Below, piece after piece: positions 22,770-63,300 of a stretch of 64,000 nucleotides of DNA; position 1 is the stretch's first letter, and the number at the start of each line of letters is the position of its first letter. The notes below the pieces were generated by a model. That model was not told the origin of the DNA and ran no database searches. It saw only the letters and a list, made by a program, of their open reading frames with translations. Source of the DNA: Protonemura montana (Eukaryota > Arthropoda > Insecta > Plecoptera > Nemouridae); the NCBI GenBank assembly GCA_947568835.1, contig OX387604.1:6975860-7039859 (forward strand), written 5' to 3'. The position numbers and the translations under genes were made by a program.

Positions 22770-23667
22770 TTATTTCTTCTCTTTAGAACTCTCGCCCACT
22801 TCTGGCATTTTCTGCAAGGTCAATGATCCTTTCATGATAAATGTTATCAATTGCAATTTTCGTTGCGATCAGAAATTCAACAAATGGCATAGAATTTAAG
22901 TAACAAAGATTCTAACTCACCTTAAATTTTTTTTTAGCTCTCTCATCATCCTTTTCGAGGCCTTCTAGTTCAACCATTAACTGCAAGTAGAATCATTCCA
23001 ATCAGTCAGTTTAATTTTTTTTTGTAATCAGAAATTTAAATAGTTGACTATAATTATTAAACAAAGATACAAACTCACCATCCCGATGATGGTGTCCATC
23101 ATTTTAGAATCCGCCTGAGTTTGTCCAATGTATCTTATACCATTGTCGTCGTCTGAGTCGTCTTCCGTTCCGGACTGCAAGGGGAATCAATCCATTCACG
23201 ATCAATGAGCTGCCGTTTATTTTGCAATCACAAATTAAAGTTATTGCCCTTTATTAAAATAACGAAGGTTGAAACTCACATCATCTTCCACTGAAACGCT
23301 TTCATCAACCTTTTCTTCGCCTTTCGTTTTGGGAATTATCTGAGAGGGGAACCATTCCATTAATAATCAATCAGCTTAGGTATCTTTGCAATCAGAAATT
23401 AAAGTAACTATCTTTAATTATAATAACGAAGATTCACACTCACTTGTTCATCCTCGGACTCACTTCCGTCATCGTCGCTGTTTCTTTCAAGTTCGGCAAT
23501 CAACTAAAATTCCATTCATGATCAATCGGGTGCCGTTTTCTTTTCAATAAAAAAAAAAATAATTGCCTATAGTTATAATAAAGATGATTAAAACTCACCT
23601 TCAGCAATATCCTGCCTAATATGTCAGAGTCAGCCCGGGATAATGGAGGGAATCGCATTTTATCCAT
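22770..23667 (-). CDS. Unrecognised small gene made of tandem phase-0 exon cassettes
   Basis: Six exons on the minus strand: 23667-23599 (69 nt), 23503-23444 (60), 23339-23280 (60), 23174-23079 (96), 22980-22921 (60), 22811-22770 (42, TAA). All are multiples of three, every intron is phase 0, every donor is GTGAGT and every acceptor is AG, giving 128 residues. The ATG context (AAAAAATGG) is strong. The peptide starts MDKMRFPPLSRADSDILG, has no signal peptide or membrane segment, and is rich in Asp/Glu/Ser (NSDDDGSESEDE; GTEDDSDDDNG) with a basic end (AKKKFK, SSKEKK). Exons 2 and 5 start alike (LIAELER / LMVELEG). The five introns (95-109 bp) are clearly homologous to one another, more so than the exons, so the locus grew by duplication of a roughly 165-bp exon-intron unit. 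I recognise no family. Function unknown; nuclear or cytosolic by composition only. Confidence 0.75.
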
Positions 23668-23956
23668 TTTTTCTTATCTTTCTCTTGTCCAGTCGAGCTC
23701 TGACCGTAGAGTGACCATCCAATTCCACAGCTGCGAGATCAAAATGGCCGACAACGATGACTCACCATGATGGCCGACAACAATGGGCACAAAAATGAGG
23801 CATGAAGAAACAAACCAAATTACTATGACAGCGACATTAGATAGGCACAACAATAGACAAATTTGAGATTTGGTAGTTTCATACACATGCTTTTATTTGG
23901 GCCACCTTATGTACTGGTCCCAAAATGATTATCATTTACATTAGGAGTTAGGACTT
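23668..23956 (-). promoter_or_regulatory. Probable promoter region of the exon-cassette gene
   Basis: The 5' flank carries two copies of TTGTCGGCCAT (minus strand, near 23744 and 23778), each containing the GCCAT core bound by YY1/Pleiohomeotic proteins, within 130 bp of the ATG. No TATA box is evident. Motif-based inference only. Confidence 0.3.
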
Positions 23957-26356
23957 TAAAGATAATAATAATAATAAAAATAATAATAATAATATGTTTA
24001 TTTCCCAGATTGATCTTTGTACAAGATATTTGTTTGTCACTTATATAGGTACATATATAGTAGTCATTCACATTAAAAAATCATTTACATTATAAAAACA
24101 TTTGTCAATTAAAAAGGTTTTTAGTTTTAATTTAAACTCGTCCTTATTTTTACTTTTCTTGATGGAGGCCGGAAGTGCGTTGAAGAGTTTCCATCCTGCA
24201 TGTTCTGTGTGTCTTTCTGATGACCATAGCCTGAAGCGTTTTATTGGGTGTTCTTCTTGACTGCTCTTGTTCTACTAATCTCCCCGGGTTCCTTTTCGTC
24301 TCTAGTATACAAACTTCGTTGGTCACTTACATATATATAGATTAATATAAAAAATGTAAAGACATGGGAGGGTCAAGATCTTGAAATACTTAAAATGTGT
24401 GACACAAGTATCTTTGTAAAAAATATCTGCACAGGGATTAAAACTCGCACCAGCCAAAAATCTAACTGCACGTATTTGAATAGTAAAAAGCCTCTTTGCA
24501 TGGTGAGATATTCCCCAAAGTACTATCCCATATTGGAGTATTGATTGGACATTGGCGTAATACACAGATAATGCTGTTGATAGATCCGATATTTCCATAA
24601 TTTTCTTTACGATAAAACATCCCGCTGACACCTTTCTTGCTATTACATGGATGTGTGGGCCCCAGTCAAGTACATGGTCTATGGTTATTCCAAGGAAGTT
24701 TGTTTCGTGCGCTGTTTGCATCGGTTTTCCTTCTAATTCAATGTTGATACTATCGGTCACTCTTCTGTGTTTTGTTGTGAACTGTAAAGACACCGATTTA
24801 TTGCTGTTTATTATGAGGTCATTAGCATTGCAGTAATTCTCCATCCTTCGTGTTGCTTCATTACCTAGCTCCACTAATGTCGACCCATTTTTAGTAGCCT
24901 TAACAAGTTGCGTTGTGTCATCGGCAAAGAGTGTTAGTTTTCCCAGACCTATCTGCTCGGGCTGATCGTTGGTAAATAATATAAATAAGAATGGCGAAAG
25001 GGTGCTGCCTTGCGGGATTCCGGTGTTGCTTGTTTTTTCGCTTGAGTAGTAGTCTCTATCCGTTCCTCTGATGCATATTATTTGTTTTCTATCACGCAGG
25101 AATGATCTGATCCAATTATTCGTAATTCCGTCTATGCCCAGTCTTCTTAGTTTTTCTAGCAGAAGGTTATGGTTTATAGTGTCAAACGCCTTTGTGAAAT
25201 CGTAGAAGATTCCTATAGTTTCTTCTTGTTGGTCTCTTGCTTCAATTAAGTGGTCGACGTAACTTGCGATCGCTGTTATTGTTGATTTATTCCGGGTGAA
25301 TTCATGCTGGTGTTCATTTTGCAAGTTGTGTTCGTTAATGAATGCAAGAAGCCTACAGCACATCACTTTTTCGAAAATCTTCAAGAACCCTGATAAGAGA
25401 GAGATTGGCCTATAATTTTCTGCTTTTTCCTTGTCCCCTTTCTTGTATATTGGTATAACTACTGCTTTCTCGAGTGCTTCCGGAAACATTCCCTGCGAGA
25501 ACGATTCGTTTATGATTCTTGCCAATGGCTGGCAGATGAATTGCGCCGCACTTTTGATTATGTCACATGGCACTTCGTCGAAACCAGCCGAGTGTTTGTT
25601 GCAAACTTCATTGATTATATTGTACATTTCAATCTCCGTTGTAGGTATGAGGAATATTGTTTTGTTACATTTTCTCTGAGTCCTCGAGCTTGTCGGTTGT
25701 GTGTTTTCCCGGTCTAATAGAAGCGTCGGTACAATATTTGCGTAATACTCACTGAAGTGTTCAGCTACCTCTTGTTGTACATTTGTGGTTCTTGAGCCTA
25801 TTTTCATTGTTAGATCACCTGAGAGAGGTTTTTTCGTCGCGTTGTTATTAGCTCGGATGATTTTCCATGCGACCTTCTTTTTATTTTTTGCATTGCTGAT
25901 GACCTTGTTAATATGTCTTCTCTTTGCAGCATCTAGTTGGTTTGTGTAATCTCTTTTCATTCTTCTGTAAATGCAATGGTATAAGTCTTCTGTTTCCGGG
26001 TTCGTCTTACTTGATCTGCTGTCCGCAAATGCTCTTTGCACTGCTTCACCTAATTTTTTTAGGTCTGCGGTGTACCATTCCATTCCAAGTGACCCCTTAT
26101 TTGGTCTTCCTCTTTTTCTCATCTTCTTTGGGAACGATGTGTTGAAGCATTCTAGGAATATATTAAGAAAGTTCTTCATCATTTCGTCTATTGGTCCAGA
26201 TTTGATACTTTCCTCCCATTTTATGTCACTGAGAAAGCTGTTGAACTCTTTCTTGTTATGGTCGCTTGTTATGGTGTTATGATGATGATCATCGCAAGCC
26301 GGCCGAGGCAGTAATTTGACTCGACAAATAACTCTCGTTACGTAAAAGAACATCAA
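23957..26356 (-). mobile_element. Non-LTR (LINE) retrotransposon, 5'-truncated, reverse transcriptase ORF
   Basis: A 677-codon frame (26356-24323) encodes the region after the endonuclease, then a reverse transcriptase: AENYRPISLLSGFLKIFEK, the acidic motif in FYDFTKAFDTINHN, GIPQGSTLSPFLFILFTND, and the catalytic LFADDTTQL (FADD). It then has the thumb-like NFLGITIDHVLDWGPHI. The endonuclease is missing, so the copy is 5'-truncated. After the stop at 24323 the conserved C-terminal part (HAGWKLFNALPASIKK, DEFKLKLKTFL) is readable down to about 24066, after several stops, so the copy is dead or decaying at that point. An (ATT)n tract at 23962-23993 forms the 3' tail. Clade: jockey/CR1-like superfamily by motif style; I cannot be more precise. 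The long open frame suggests a fairly recent insertion. Confidence 0.92.
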
Positions 26357-26555
26357 ACTAGCATAACAATAAAAAATGTCACAAACATTGTCTCAAATCG
26401 AATAAATGACTACTAAGCACCGTCGTTTATCGTTAGGTACTTTAATAGATTGCGAATTACATAGAAAATTGCACCGTGCCGCCCTTTAAGACTGCAAACT
26501 CCTTCATTAGAAGTCCGTTTTCACGAATGCATCTTACACGAGAAAAAAATTGTAA

Positions 26556-50133: not shown

Positions 50134-52167
50134 ATGGTTCATCTCCTCGCTTTTCTGCTCATCATCTCTGGGCCGTCGATAATTCTTTGCAGAGGTAAAT
50201 TTGATCTTGTTGTTCTTGACGTTAACTTATTTGTACCCAGAAGTGCGATTTTGAAAATTTTTTCTAGTACAATGAGTGTTAACTATTCGAGTTAAATTTT
50301 CATCGCTCGAACGAATTGGTATAATCTCTTTGCATCTCATTTAACTGGTAAAAAGTTACAGAATTGTACCCTAGATTATATTTGTTTGACTTATAGTTGC
50401 AGAAAGATCGATTGGGACAAAGAAATTTACAGCAAGAACAGAAAAATATTTCGTGATCGTTTTATCGACATTTTTTTTCTAAACAACAGATTTAGATGAA
50501 ATGTGTGAAGGAGTGAATCTTACTTTATCACATCAAGTCCAACGTGTGGTGATAGTTTTTACTGCCAAGAAATCAATGCAATTGAACCTCGTAATAACGC
50601 TAAGCACACGCACGAGGTTTTTTTACATTGTTTATTGTTTACAAGTTCATGTTTCTAAAACACCGCCATTGCTGCTCGGTTTTTTTTTTTTTAGTCCGGA
50701 TAAACATGTTCAACTTTGTGAAAAAGTAAGGCTCCAAATCTTGAGACTCTTGTGGTAGCTTGTAAGTGGCAGTTGAGAATACAACTAATTCACCTAGATC
50801 TGTCATTGAAACTTAGCCAAGGTCCAAGAACATTATTGAACCCGGACCAAGAAATCGCGGAAAATCAGAAAAGTATATTTATGTTGCGACTGTAAGACAA
50901 TAAAACATCTGTGTGAATATACTGCAAGTTCCATCAATTTTGTCCCCCACCCCCATGGTAGGTGAAAAACACCATATACCCAACTTTTATTGGTTCGGCA
51001 AAACTGCATCAAACATACTAGTTAAGTGTGGTTATCAAATTGCTGAGTATGAAGACTGTATTTATTATATTGCAACAACACCGATTTCAATACCAGCGGT
51101 TTACACCTAATTCAGAAACTCGAAGCTGTTCACCTTCAATGAAGAGGACTATTTTCAACCTGGTCCGTGGGCCCCTGAAACCCGAGTGGATCGTTGACTG
51201 GAACATCTAGCTGACAGTTTTATCTTTGTTAACAGGAGTACCCGAACATGACTCGCCGACAGTGGGGATTGCTGAGGTAGCGGTGGAAGTGGAAGTAGCG
51301 GAGGTAGCGGAACGATCCAGACGCTATGTATCAGGACCGATCAAATACGGAAACTCGAAAACTCAAGGAGGTCATGCGGACCATGGGTATGTGGACGACG
51401 CCAGCACCGACGGCGGGTACGGAGGCCAAGGCAGCGGGGGCTACAACCATAGAACCACCGGGGGAAACAACAACGCCAACAAAAACAACAACAACAACCG
51501 AAACCCCGGGAGCTATAACAACAATAATAACCGTAACCCAGCGGGATACAACAATAGAAATACCAATAAAGGGAGCGGGGGTGGAAGCGGGTCGTTCTCT
51601 GGATCGCAGTCGTCTTCAGGATCATTTTCCGGTAGCGGAAATCATGGAGGCGGAAGTGGTTCGTTCTCAGGGTCCCAGTCGTCCTCAGGTTCCGCTTCCG
51701 GGGGTGGCCATCTCGGATCAGGAAGTGGATCAGGATCATCTGCTGGTGGATGGGGTGGAAACCGGAACAAGGGAGCATCGCTTTCTGGTTCGCAGAGTTC
51801 GTCAAGCTCATTTTCTGGATCTCTAGGGGGTGGTCTAGGTGGACCAGGGGGTTCCCTTGGCCTCTCGGGCTCGTTCTCCAGTAGCCAGAGCGCTGCTGGC
51901 GGCGGCGGGTTTGGCTCTTCGGGCTCAGGGTCGTCCTCAGGGTCGTCGGCAGGATCTTCAGCAGGAGGTGGAGGAGGTGGTGGATTCGGAGCAGGACTTT
52001 CGGCTAGCCAAAGCTCCTCGTTTTCGGGGTCGCTTGGGATCGGGGGCGGATCAGGGCTTGGAGGGTCGTTGTCCGGAAGTCAGTCGTTCTCGGGGTCCGT
52101 TGCTGGCTCAGGGGCAGCAGGCGGCCACGGAAATCACGGGGAACATGAGGAGGAAGAAGACTTCTAG
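50134..52167 (+). CDS. Secreted Ser/Gly-rich low-complexity protein
   Basis: Two exons, 50134-50194 and 51236-52167, joined in phase 1 across a 1041-bp intron; 330 residues. Residues 1-20 form a clear signal peptide (MVHLLAFLLIISG...). A Val/Glu-rich linker (IAEVAVEVEVAEVAE) runs to a basic RSRR at 47-50, a furin-like cleavage site. The mature part has an Asn-rich block (NNNANKNNNNNRN) and about six repeats of the form SxSGSQSS(S/G)SFSGS within Gly/Ser spacers, then an acidic/His tail (HGEHEEEEDF). The exon-1-signal-peptide structure, TATA promoter and composition resemble cuticle, silk, glue or salivary structural proteins; I recognise no named family. AATAAA at 52258 follows. Neighbouring gene 56912-59158 shares the layout. 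Confidence 0.85.
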
Positions 52168-56911: not shown

Positions 56912-59158
56912 TTACCAGCCGTAAGACCCACTCGACGATTGGCTGCTGCTGCTTGATTGACTGTACGACCCACCTCCTGAAGGGTACCTACCCCCACCTC
57001 CACCACCACCCCCACACACGCTACAGTGCTGCTGCTGGGGTTGATACTGTTGCTGCGGTCGGTACTGTGGTTGAACCTGGACTACAACCACTTTGCCACC
57101 CCCATAACCACCCCCGTATCCACCCCCATGTCCACCGCCGCCGCCGTATCCACCGCCGCCGCCAAATCCACCTCCGCCGTATCCACCTCCGCCATATCCG
57201 CCTCTTTTGCCACACTTGTGACAGATAGTCCGTTTCTTACGAGGATTAGTTTCCGTATCCTCTAGCTGTGCCGTTTCCTTGTTCTCTGAAAGAAAATAGC
57301 AAATGGATTATTTTCAATTTATCAGAGTAGGTAATATATTTTATTTGTCAAATCGAGCCAAAAATGGCAACAGTAGGAATTGAATTTGTGAAGTGTGGTT
57401 GCGATGAAAAACTCAAAGTAAAAAGTAATCATTTTGAAAGGGTTATTATTTCCAGGAATCGTTGTTTCAGCAGAAATCTTCTGATCGCTATGAAACCATT
57501 TCTGCAACTGACCCACTTTCCAGATTCTGGATTTTCACTGACTCTCTATCATGGAAATTAATTGCGGAAACTGAGAGAGCTTTATCTTAAGCATACAGAC
57601 GAAGTATTCAGACGAAGAATTCTGAAAACGGATATTTCGCGTACTTTTACGTTCACAAAAAGCATCTGCACTCTGCAGTTGGAATAATAATTACACTCAG
57701 CGGATGGCGTATTCGTAGAATTCTGCATATTTAAAAAACGTGCAGAAAAATGACACTTTCCGAGTTTGTGTTAATTTTCCATTTCAATTAATAAGGCTGT
57801 GGTATATGTTGATCAGAGATTGTAAACAATGTTAAACCAAGTTTAACAAGTGTAAATCAAGCTATGTGTAAGTCAGTGATCCTAAACCAATGACACATAT
57901 GTCGTTGGTGACATGCGACAGTACTCTAGCGGTAGAGCAAGTAGCATAATTAAAAAATCCACCTATTAAACGGTCAGAAAAATGCAGGCCACTCATATTT
58001 TCACATTTTCGATTGATATTATTTGCATTGCTCTTTTCCGTTGTGGCGTGAACCTGTGCATGGATCTAGGTCCCGTACCTATTTGCTTTCAGGAAATTCC
58101 ACAGGTAACCTAACAGTTTTTGAAACTTTGACGCACAACACAGCAAGAGGAGCTGTGAAGTTTTCAAAGCTTCTTCTGTTCTCAAAATGAAATGGAGTGT
58201 AGGCTAAACGTGAGTCGAGGTAATCGATCGAAACCCTGAATGTTTCTCTGAATTAACCATGTTCTGAGTTAACCAATCACGGATCGTACCTGGCTGCTGA
58301 TATTTTTGCTGCTGTTGATCTTGTTGCTGTTGTTGCTCCGGTTGACTGAGCTGAGGAGCCAGATTGGTCGCAGCTCCAGTCAGTAGGCTCACCAATCGTG
58401 ACCTGTTGATATTGGGTTCGGAACCAGACGCGGTACCGGATGCGGTACCAGAACCAGAGTCTGCACTGGAAGTTTCTGTTTGTCTGGAAAACCTCTCAGC
58501 GCTCTCTCCAGGAGACTGCAATTCGTCGGTTATGAAGCTCTCCCCACGAACATTTCCTTTGAGAAAACAACGTCGTGAAAACTTGGTTATTCAGCCAATT
58601 CATATTCTCCCATAATGCAGTTATTACTTCTTTTTTAATGTAGACTTGGGTATACAAAGAAAGTTTAAACCACGTACTAAAGTGTATCCAGTAGTCGCTG
58701 GGATTTCTAAAATGCTATGTAAGATTTCAGTCGGAATGTATGGCACCTCCATCGACATACGACACGAAAATAGCATAGGAATTTGCTCAAAATAAGAATT
58801 TAATTATGCCCTTGGATGATTAACGAATGTCATAATAGAAATGTGAATGTTTTTTTCAAGCAGTCCAATACACTAGGCGCTAGGAGTCAAAAATGTCTAG
58901 CACCCAAACGTAAAAACGTGAATTGTCATCATCTTTACTCAGGATTGAGGCAACATAGGTTTTTTCTTTAAGTTATCTCTAAATGTGTAACCAGAGAACA
59001 TAAATAAGAAACAACGTTAGATTTTAAGATGTAATTAATCATTAAATTGTATTGTCAGCTTACTCACCTGTCTCAGAAGTGTAGCGGATGTCGAAATTCT
59101 TCCCGCTCGCTTGAGCCAAGACTAGGCTACACAGAAGTAGCAAGTGAAGTACGCCCAT
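56912..59158 (-). CDS. Secreted Gly/Tyr-rich protein with two CxxC motifs
   Basis: Three exons, 59158-59068, 58556-58290, 57285-56912, with phase 1 at both junctions; 243 residues. Residues 1-18 are a signal peptide (MGVLHLLLLCSLVLAQASG). The middle exon is Ser/Thr-rich with tandem GTASGTASGS and a Gln-rich end (PEQQQQQDQQQQKYQQ). A basic RKKR at 135-138 is followed at once by TICHKCGK, then a run of GGYGGGG-type repeats, a VVVVQVQPQYRPQQQYQP segment, CSVC, poly-Gly, and a SQSSSSQSSSGSYGW end. GYGG repeats are typical of cuticular and eggshell-type structural proteins. The paired CxxC (CHKC, CSVC) could form disulfides or bind metal. The layout parallels the gene at 50134-52167. Confidence 0.88.
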
Positions 59159-60369: not shown

Positions 60370-63300
60370 CTAAATTATCGCGTTTCCATCAAGAGCTTTT
60401 TGCAACAGCTCGTAATGTTTCCTATCCAATACAAAGTAACTAACATCCCTATGGACAATTGCCACCACGAATTTCTCTTGTTCATTTTGCGCTGAGGCAC
60501 CCGGTTGCGTAAATCCCTGTTGCTGCGCGCCGGGAAGAATGGCAGCGTTCAACATCGCCTCGCGCAGCTGCGCTACTTTCTGCGCGTCTCCTGTGCTTTC
60601 GAATTTTTGGGTTATGTCCGTTTCCGACACGTGGCTGACTGCTCCCAAGACGCTCTTGTGTCCTCCGGACGCGCCGGACAGTTCACGTAAAGTTGACGAC
60701 AAACTTAACACTGGACTTGCGCACGTAGGGACTGTCAGCAACTCATTCGCAATATCAATGTTCAAACCGGAAGCACTTTGTTTGTGTCCGAAATAAGTAA
60801 AATTAGTTTTAGAAAATGAAATGAGGGACCGATTTATCTTATGGGTGCTTTTGTGGTTACCACTAGCGTGATCAGAGATCGAGGTTATGTAGTTGGCCAC
60901 AGGATTCAGGATATATGAATCGGCGACCCCAAGAGCTAAAGGCAACGCCATTGGTAAACTTCCGGTAGTGGTAAGATGAATCTTATCTCCTTGGCTCGGT
61001 GAAAACGGTATTTGTATTAAATCACCTGAGCTAATTGTTAAAGGAATCGAAATTGCTCCCCCGACGCTAGAAGCGGGAGGAACAGGAACTGAGTCAAAGG
61101 CAGGAAGATTTGAATTTGAACCGTCGAAGCCGGAAGTTGAAGGAATTGATATTGAATCAATGGCACCGGAAGTAGAAGGAATTGAAATTGGGTCATTGGA
61201 ACCGGAAGTTAAAGAATTTGAAATTGAGTTTACGGAACCAGAATTATGAGGAATTGAAATTGAGTCAATAGAGCCGGAAGTTGAAGGAATTGGAATTGAG
61301 TCAACGGAACCGGAAGTTGAAGGAATTGAAATCGAGTCAACGGAACCGGACGTTGAAGGAATTGAAGTTGAGTCAACGGAACCGGAAGTTGAAGGAATTG
61401 AAATCGAGTCAACGGAACCGGAAGTTGAAGGAATTGGAATTGAGTCAACGGAACCGGAAGTTAAAGGAATTAAAATTGAGTCAACGAAGCCGGAAGTTGA
61501 AGGAATTGAAATTGAGTCAACGAAGCCGGAAGTTGAAGAAATTGAACTCGAGTCAACGGAACCGGAAGTTGAAGGAATTGAAATTAAGTCAATGGAGCCG
61601 GAAGTTGAAGGAATTGAAATTGAATCAACGAGGCTGGAAGTTGAAGGAATTGAAATTGAGTCAACGGAACCGGAAGTTGGAGAAATTGACATTGAGGAAA
61701 GGGAACCGGAAGTTGAAGGAATTGAAGTTGAGTCAACGGAACTGGAAATTGGAGAAATTGAAATTGAGTCAACGGAACCAGATGTTGAAGGAATTGATTC
61801 AGAGTCAACGGAACCGGAAGTTAAAGGAATTAAAATTGAATCAGTGGAACTGGAAGTTGAAGGAATTAAAATTGAGTCAACGGAACCGGAAGTTGAAGGA
61901 ATTGAAGTTGAGTCAACGGAACCGGAAGTTGAAGGAATTGAAATTGAGTCAACGGAAACGGAAGTTGAAGGAATTGAAATTGAGTCAACGGAACTGGAAG
62001 TTGGTGAAATTGAGTCAACGGAACCGGAAGTTGAAGGAATTGATTCAGAGTCAACGGAACCGGAAGTTGAAGGAATTGAAATTGAATCAGTGGAACTGGA
62101 AGTTGAAGGAATTAAAATTGAATCAGTGGAACTGGAAGTTGGAGGAATTGAAATTGAGTCAACGGAACTGGAAGTTGAAGGAATTGAAGTTGAGTCAACG
62201 GAACTGGAAGTTGGAGAGATTGAAATTGAGTCAACGGAACCGGAAGTTGAAGGATTTGATTCAGAGTCAACGGAACCGGAAGTTGTAGGAAGTAAAATTG
62301 AGTCAATGGAACCGGAAGTTGAAGGAATTGAAATTAAGTCAACGGAACCAGAAGTTGAAGGGATTGAAATTGAGTCAACGGAACCGGAAGTTGAAGGAAT
62401 TGAAATTGAGTCAACGGAACCGGAAGTTGAAGGAATTGAAATTGAGTCAACGGAACCGGAAGTTGAAGGAATTGAAGTTGAGTTAACGGAACCGGAAGTT
62501 GAAGTTGAAGGAATTGAAATTGAGTCAACGGAACCGGAAGTTGAAGGAATTGAAATTGAGTCAATGGAACTGGAAGTTGAAGGAATTGAAATTGAATCAG
62601 TGGAACTGGAAGTTGAAGGAATTGAAATTGAGTCAACGGAACTGGAAGTTGAAGGAATTGAAATTGAATCAGTGGAACTGGAAGTTGAAGGAATTAAAAT
62701 TGAGTCAAAGGAGCCGGAAGTTGAAGGAACTGAAATTGAGTCGATGGATCCGGAATGCTGAGGAATTGACGTTGATTCACTGAAACCTGATGTTGATTGA
62801 TTGGGCGATGGCTGGTCTATGTTTTCATTTGCAAAATATGATGACACGCTCACATTATTTGCACTGTTCAACGCAGGCACGAAGTTAATTTCTTGGTTCA
62901 AAACTTCGATATTTTCATCTGGGTTCAAGGGATTTTCTTGCTGCCAGCTTGGTACATTACTTGCGGTTTGACTACCGCCCACAACGTCACTGCCAACATT
63001 ACTTATTATTTGATTACTGGAAACAATTCCGTCGTCATCTTTGACGCTGCCTTGAGCAAATAGGTTGTGGCTAGATGTGATTACCTCATTGCCTGAAGGA
63101 AAACCTGAAGAAATACTTATGCCCATTGATGTACCTGCGGGATTGAGAGAAGAAATACTTGCCAAATTGGGGAGAGAGTTTTCTAAAGAGCCAGGAGAAT
63201 GAACTGATGCAGTTTCGGAAGTGCTGAGAACATTACCAGAAAAGTTGTTGAAATTTCCAAGAGAACTATTAGGTGAAGTGATGGAAGTGTCGAAAGTTCC

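Follow-up and report, generated by a model that had tools for sequence, protein, structure and literature searches.

A predicted gene of six exons, encoding a small acidic protein, was found on the minus strand between positions 23667 and 22770 of the window, i.e. of the whole 64-kb stretch of DNA that was analysed. Judged from its sequence, the gene is apparently present once in the genome and is likely to have arisen by an old tandem duplication of phase-0 exon-intron units within one gene.

Gene structure and predicted protein

When joined, the predicted exons form a 387-nt frame from ATG to TAA without an internal stop, and 8 and 17 stops are present in their two remaining reading frames. 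The exons measure 69, 60, 60, 96, 60 and 42 nt and are in phase 0 throughout; all parts of the gene lie on the minus strand. Exon 1 (23599..23667, 69 nt, with the ATG start; MDKMRFPPLSRADSDILGRILLK) was designated type A, exons 2 (23444..23503; LIAELERNSDDDGSESEDEQ), 3 (23280..23339; IIPKTKGEEKVDESVSVEDD) and 5 (22921..22980; LMVELEGLEKDDERAKKKFK), each of 60 nt, were designated type B, and exon 6 (22770..22811, 42 nt including the TAA; KMPEVGESSKEKK) type C. Exon 4 (23079..23174, 96 nt; SGTEDDSDDDNGIRYIGQTQADSKMMDTIIGM) is composed of a 27-nt acidic lead and a type A sequence. The predicted introns 1 (23504..23598, GTGAGT...TTTTAG), 2 (23340..23443), 3 (23175..23279), 4 (22981..23078) and 5 (22812..22920) are 95, 104, 105, 98 and 109 nt long, respectively, and every one of them starts with GTGAGT, ends with AG and is in phase 0. 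The proposed splicing and coding status is based on the frame and on these splice sites. The joined open frame bears out the exon lengths of 60, 60, 96 and 60 nt and the phase 0 between the five introns that an earlier note on this DNA had given. The 165-bp cassette described there holds as a typical size, but not as a fixed one, the spacing from intron start to intron start being 155-201 bp.

A second GTGAGT was observed within exon 2 (23458-23463, minus strand), 20 nt upstream of the proposed donor, and its use would lead to a frame shift. On the plus strand, two copies of ATGGCCGACAAC(G/A)ATG were found 26 bp apart at 23744-23785 (chance mean 0.01), which places them 77-118 bp upstream of the ATG. 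Both copies presumably resemble a YY1-type promoter motif.

The predicted product is an acidic protein of 128 aa (14.4 kDa, pI 4.4, with 36 acidic and 21 basic residues) and contains no cysteine. No signal peptide could be recognised by eye at the N-terminus MDKMRFPPLSRADSD (MDKMRFPPLS), and a basic stretch, RAKKKFKK, is located close to the C-terminus. The protein is probably intracellular and largely disordered. Comparison of the protein with family models yielded no Pfam family above its cut-off and no NCBIfam match. RRN3 (PF05327), which appeared with a Pfam E-value of 0.4, i.e. under the cut-off, was dropped as a candidate relative after one segment of the genome's own RRN3, located on another contig, had given a BLASTP E-value of 5.0. 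Among solved structures there was one match (E 0.072), to a ThiJ-family protease-like chain. No description of the gene was met in literature searches, which is a weak negative result, and the gene was judged to be without known relatives.

Intron homology

Homology of the five introns, claimed in the earlier note for introns of 95-109 nt, was confirmed and extends over almost the whole of their length. All ten intron pairs scored above all 300 dinucleotide shuffles, and the same result was obtained after the splice ends had been trimmed. Mean core identity in the MAFFT alignment was 0.70, compared with 0.44 for shuffled introns aligned likewise (maximum 0.49 of 60). Without gapped alignment, introns 2, 3 and 5 anchored at their donors showed an agreement of 0.71 over positions 9-59. 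Intron 5 was on average the most diverged copy, with distances of 0.42-0.46 to the other introns. A sequence-only intron model gave 73-95 bits for the five introns, from which the model itself had been built, and at most 10 bits for the rest of the 64-kb window; the match covered model positions 1-91 of 105 in intron 1 and positions 1-105 in the other four. A donor-anchored scan of the window comprised 40 pairs within 1 kb, 14 of which scored at least 20, all inside the gene. When 141,122 bases of genome loci from outside the gene were scanned likewise, the outcome was 0 of 41 pairs, in a sample that was small and non-random, as most loci had been chosen for a word or family common with the query and five overlapping loci represent one gene.

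No consensus fold was found for the five introns, and the folds of single introns were no better than those of shuffles (z -0.75 to 1.15). Rfam searches of the 64-kb window gave no family at the gathering score, with 8 sub-threshold matches between 22000 and 24300. A role of the gene as host of a snoRNA or other non-coding RNA was rejected, since neither an Rfam family at the gathering score nor a conserved fold was found. Patterned conservation within the introns looked attractive in 10-column windows, but failed a permutation test (p 0.12 and 0.51) and was likewise abandoned.

Exon homology and the repeated protein module

The earlier note had regarded the exons as strongly different apart from an LxxELE motif. 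This view could not be maintained, as exons 2, 3 and 5 and exons 1 and 4 are detectably homologous in register. Aligned without gaps, exons 2, 3 and 5 were identical at 92 of 180 sites (31/60 for exons 2 and 3, 28/60 for exons 2 and 5, and 33/60 for exons 3 and 5) against a null of 60.8 ± 5.9, and between exon 1 and the last 69 nt of exon 4, 34 of 69 sites were identical against a null of 17.4 ± 3.8. None of 20,000 codon shuffles reached either total. When all 15 exon pairs were scanned in frame at any offset, p was below 0.05 in three, namely exons 3 and 5 (0.0085), 2 and 3 (0.0235) and 1 and 4 (0.0015), all of which were at zero offset or right-justified, i.e. in the register expected of cassettes. 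The pair of exons 2 and 5 also had its optimum at zero offset, but was weak alone (p 0.137). With global gapped alignment, two of the 15 pairs were notable (2 and 3, 3 and 5). For exon 6, no homology to the other five exons was detected by any-offset scan or pairwise alignment. The order of units in the predicted gene may thus be written A-B-B-A-B-C or, with the introns, A-i-B-i-B-i-A-i-B-i-C.

At the protein level, the two A+B modules align as RADSDILGRILLKLIAELERNSDDD and QADSKMMDTIIGMLMVELEGLEKDD with a score of 24 over 29 residues, a value reached by none of 20,000 shuffles (null 8.4 ± 3.2), so that an intron lies within the stretch that codes for the repeated protein unit. The highest amphipathic-helix moment in the protein is that of the first A+B copy (0.74; p 0.019 in comparison with shuffles), and the most hydrophobic stretch of 15 residues is in the second. 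A+B is probably one hydrophobic, helical segment (ADS, followed by hydrophobic residues and ELE) with an acidic tail, which occurs twice in the protein. With low confidence, we infer that the protein might be a small intracellular, perhaps nuclear, binding scaffold in which two short hydrophobic helix-like modules are placed among acidic linkers.

Divergence of exons and introns

Pairwise distances were 0.28-0.46 between introns and 0.70-0.96 between exons, in agreement with the earlier statement that the introns are more alike than the exons. Mean identity of the homologous exons was 0.53, 0.60 and 0.44 at codon positions 1, 2 and 3, compared with 0.70 for the introns; in the B exons alone it was 0.65 at second and 0.38 at third positions, although the bootstrap intervals of second- and third-position identities overlap. 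Intron identity exceeded that of codon position 3 (bootstrap P 0.0001) and position 1 (0.007), and the difference from position 2 was not clear (0.083). The contrast between introns and exons is somewhat overstated by these figures, because the same sequences enter more than one pair and gapped alignment raises the value for the introns.

The third position was clearly the least alike in two of the four exon pairs, with identities at positions 1, 2 and 3 of 0.50, 0.70 and 0.35 for exons 2 and 3 and of 0.55, 0.65 and 0.20 for exons 2 and 5. The other two pairs were flat or mixed: values were near equal for exons 1 and 4 (0.55, 0.55 and 0.50), and the third position was not the lowest for exons 3 and 5 (0.45, 0.60 and 0.60). 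Where aligned codons specified the same residue, 9 of 20 were identical, indicating that silent sites had diverged too. As third positions of the exons are near saturation, the contrast points to slowly changing introns and not to fast-changing peptides. The exons have the appearance of normal coding sequence in which silent sites are well diverged.

Copies elsewhere in the genome

A genome search with the intron consensus, for which the earlier note had asked, was carried out with the consensus as DNA query against the 258-Mb genome. It returned three introns of the gene and nothing further, so that no dispersed repeat came to light within the limited sensitivity of the search. A 26-base word from the 5′ block, allowing up to 3 mismatches, was found at 3 places, all of them introns of the gene (control 0). 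A 19-base word from the middle block, allowing up to 2 mismatches, was found at 40 places, a small excess over the 26 for the reversed control; 3 of the 40 were introns of the gene, and 6 were one identical variant, which is perhaps another repeat. The intron model was run on 29 loci, i.e. the gene and 28 of the 37 other places of the 19-base word. The best match outside the gene covered part of the model (positions 3-61; 16.5 bits, E 0.00067) and three more were below an E-value of 0.01, values that are flattering because these loci had been chosen for sharing the word. No full-length intron copy was thus found outside the gene in the 258-Mb genome by the consensus and the two word searches, each of which finds three of the five known introns and may therefore miss diverged copies. 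With the protein as query, the genome gave five matches at E-values up to 10, all inside the gene.

Other observations in the window and the genome

A reverse-transcriptase frame of 689 aa from stop to stop (RVT_1, E 2.7e-33) occupies 24323-26392 on the minus strand; this retroelement ends about 0.65 kb from the start of the gene, on the upstream side. At 61130-62769, a 36-bp tandem repeat of about 45 copies was observed, with a 503-aa open frame of protein repeats of a 16-letter motif. Two frames on opposite strands (51211-52167 and 56912-57307) are rich in Gly-Ser/Gly-Tyr repeats with SQSSSGS-type motifs and resemble structural proteins; no Pfam family scored over its cut-off in either.

In the genome, COX1 was found at high score twice on the nuclear contig C4 (5760925-5762262 and 5776811-5777755). 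The low ends of the two copies are 15,886 bases apart, and C34, the apparent mitochondrial contig, is 15,885 bases long. The twin copies point either to nuclear copies of the mitochondrial genome in tandem array or to an error of assembly. Weaker COX1 fragments, four in number, were located on C12, C4, C16 and C3. The COX1 of the mitochondrial contig is open throughout when translated with invertebrate code 5, and it appears arthropod-like.

Origin of the gene and alternative explanations

The amplification of a cassette, as proposed in the earlier note, is supported by the features found here that mark exon-intron cassette duplication, i.e. homologous introns, exons homologous in register (2, 3 and 5, and 1 and 4, with the exception of exon 6) and a symmetric phase 0. 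Phase-0 exon-intron units of two kinds, A and B, would have been duplicated in tandem, for which unequal crossing-over at the similar introns would be the simplest route. The distances of the B exons and of the introns preceding them rank alike (introns 0.28, 0.33 and 0.41; exons 0.70, 0.78 and 0.96), as expected if an intron was duplicated together with the exon after it, the ranking comprising three points only. After copying of an A+B block, exon 2 should be closest to exon 5, and intron 1 to intron 4. This mode is disfavoured, since the distance between exons 2 and 5 is the largest among the B pairs (0.96) and introns 1 and 4, at 0.41, are not close either.

The five introns might instead be copies of one intron-generating mobile element, or introner, that had landed repeatedly in the gene. 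Introns alike from end to end beside weakly similar exons, and a unit spacing of 155-201 bp, are consistent with such insertions. Target-site duplications were not convincing, the longest words common across junctions being 3-5 bases, and inverted ends were equally unconvincing (4-9 of 20 bases), although introner families may be without both features according to PMC9860276. An element of this kind is disfavoured by the genome searches, in which the consensus and the 26-base word led back to three introns of this gene, with 0 places for the control of the word, and in which the excess of the 19-base word (40 places against 26) was small, with one identical variant at 6 of the 40 places. The likeness also continues into the exons in register, and intron similarity reaching beyond the intron is filtered out in PMC9860276, where it is taken to indicate that a longer region was duplicated. 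We therefore consider introner insertion quite unlikely. The earlier note had favoured diversifying selection on short peptide modules. Such selection, acting in an effector-like or secreted gene, is in our opinion highly unlikely. It would account for exon distances (0.70-0.96) above those of the introns (0.28-0.46), and exons 3 and 5 are indeed less alike at position 1 (0.45) than at position 3 (0.60), the pair of exons 1 and 4 being near equal. Under selection for peptide change, however, positions 1 and 2 should be more divergent than position 3, and the mean shows the reverse, with third positions least alike (0.44) and second positions most alike (0.60), clearly so in two of four pairs and with overlapping bootstrap intervals. 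Furthermore, less than half of the same-residue codons (9/20) were identical, so that silent sites had diverged as well, and MDKMRFPPLS has no signal peptide by eye. The claim thus has to be considered unsupported, and the gene gives reason for caution, in that introns more alike than exons need not imply positive selection on the exons.

Co-duplication alone would not account for introns that are more alike than third codon positions. On top of cassette duplication, the introns may have been kept alike by gene conversion or by a function in regulated splicing, i.e. frame-safe skipping or swapping of exons; we regard this as possible, though doubtful. The excess of intron identity over that of third positions (bootstrap P 0.0001) and the phase 0 of every intron would agree with it, while the introns showed no conserved fold, no Rfam match at the gathering score and no significant blocks. 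Slow introns could be due to constraint on the introns or to gene conversion between them, and the present data fit either, the constraint version being weakened by the conserved blocks not being significant (p 0.12 and 0.51). Carried further, the introns would be a homogenised set, by conversion or by a splicing function, and would act as recombination handles, with the exons drifting and with cassette number or isoforms varying between individuals; this appears unlikely. Should homogenisation of the introns be real, the gene would lend itself naturally to tests of cassette turnover and of gene conversion between introns.

Comparison with known systems

The growth of a gene by duplication of exon-intron units is an already known route, and internal exon duplication by way of same-phase introns is a general and known kind of event. 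The predicted gene resembles it in its fixed-length phase-0 exons, duplicated in register with the introns. It differs in that the duplication is old, with exons at about half identity, and in that the introns are better kept than third codon positions. The gene may serve as a compact, readable case of lengthening by phase-matched exon-intron units.

Two families to which the gene had been likened in the earlier note proved to be poor counterparts. Schistosome micro-exon genes, a kind not known outside flatworms, have very small symmetrical exons and, according to PMC4350168, a signal peptide on all of their products. Several small symmetrical exons that could be skipped without a frame shift are found here too; they measure 42-96 nt, and no limit of size was seen for the exons of micro-exon genes. 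No second family member was found in the genome, and the likeness fails on the signal peptide, as none is recognisable by eye. In aphid bicycle genes, as characterised in PMC9168663, nearly all internal exons are in phase 2, exons average about 17 with a minimum of 5, and many members have CYC motifs and an N-terminal signal sequence. A run of small internal exons in one phase is common to both, and six exons are within this minimum. The comparison breaks down on intron phase and cysteines, since the present gene is in phase 0 and encodes no cysteine; it also has no signal sequence by eye, and no gene family was found.

Introner elements share with this gene introns that are similar from end to end. 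Here, however, one gene only is concerned, the similarity extends into the exons, although less than in the introns, and there is no insertion signature. Conserved introns are also a feature of venom and conotoxin genes. The protein-coding parts are reported to change rapidly in comparison with the remainder of these genes (PMC2474615, PMC3862624). In those genes the contrast is seen between gene copies of secreted toxins, whereas in the present gene it is seen within one gene, in which third codon positions are on average the least alike.
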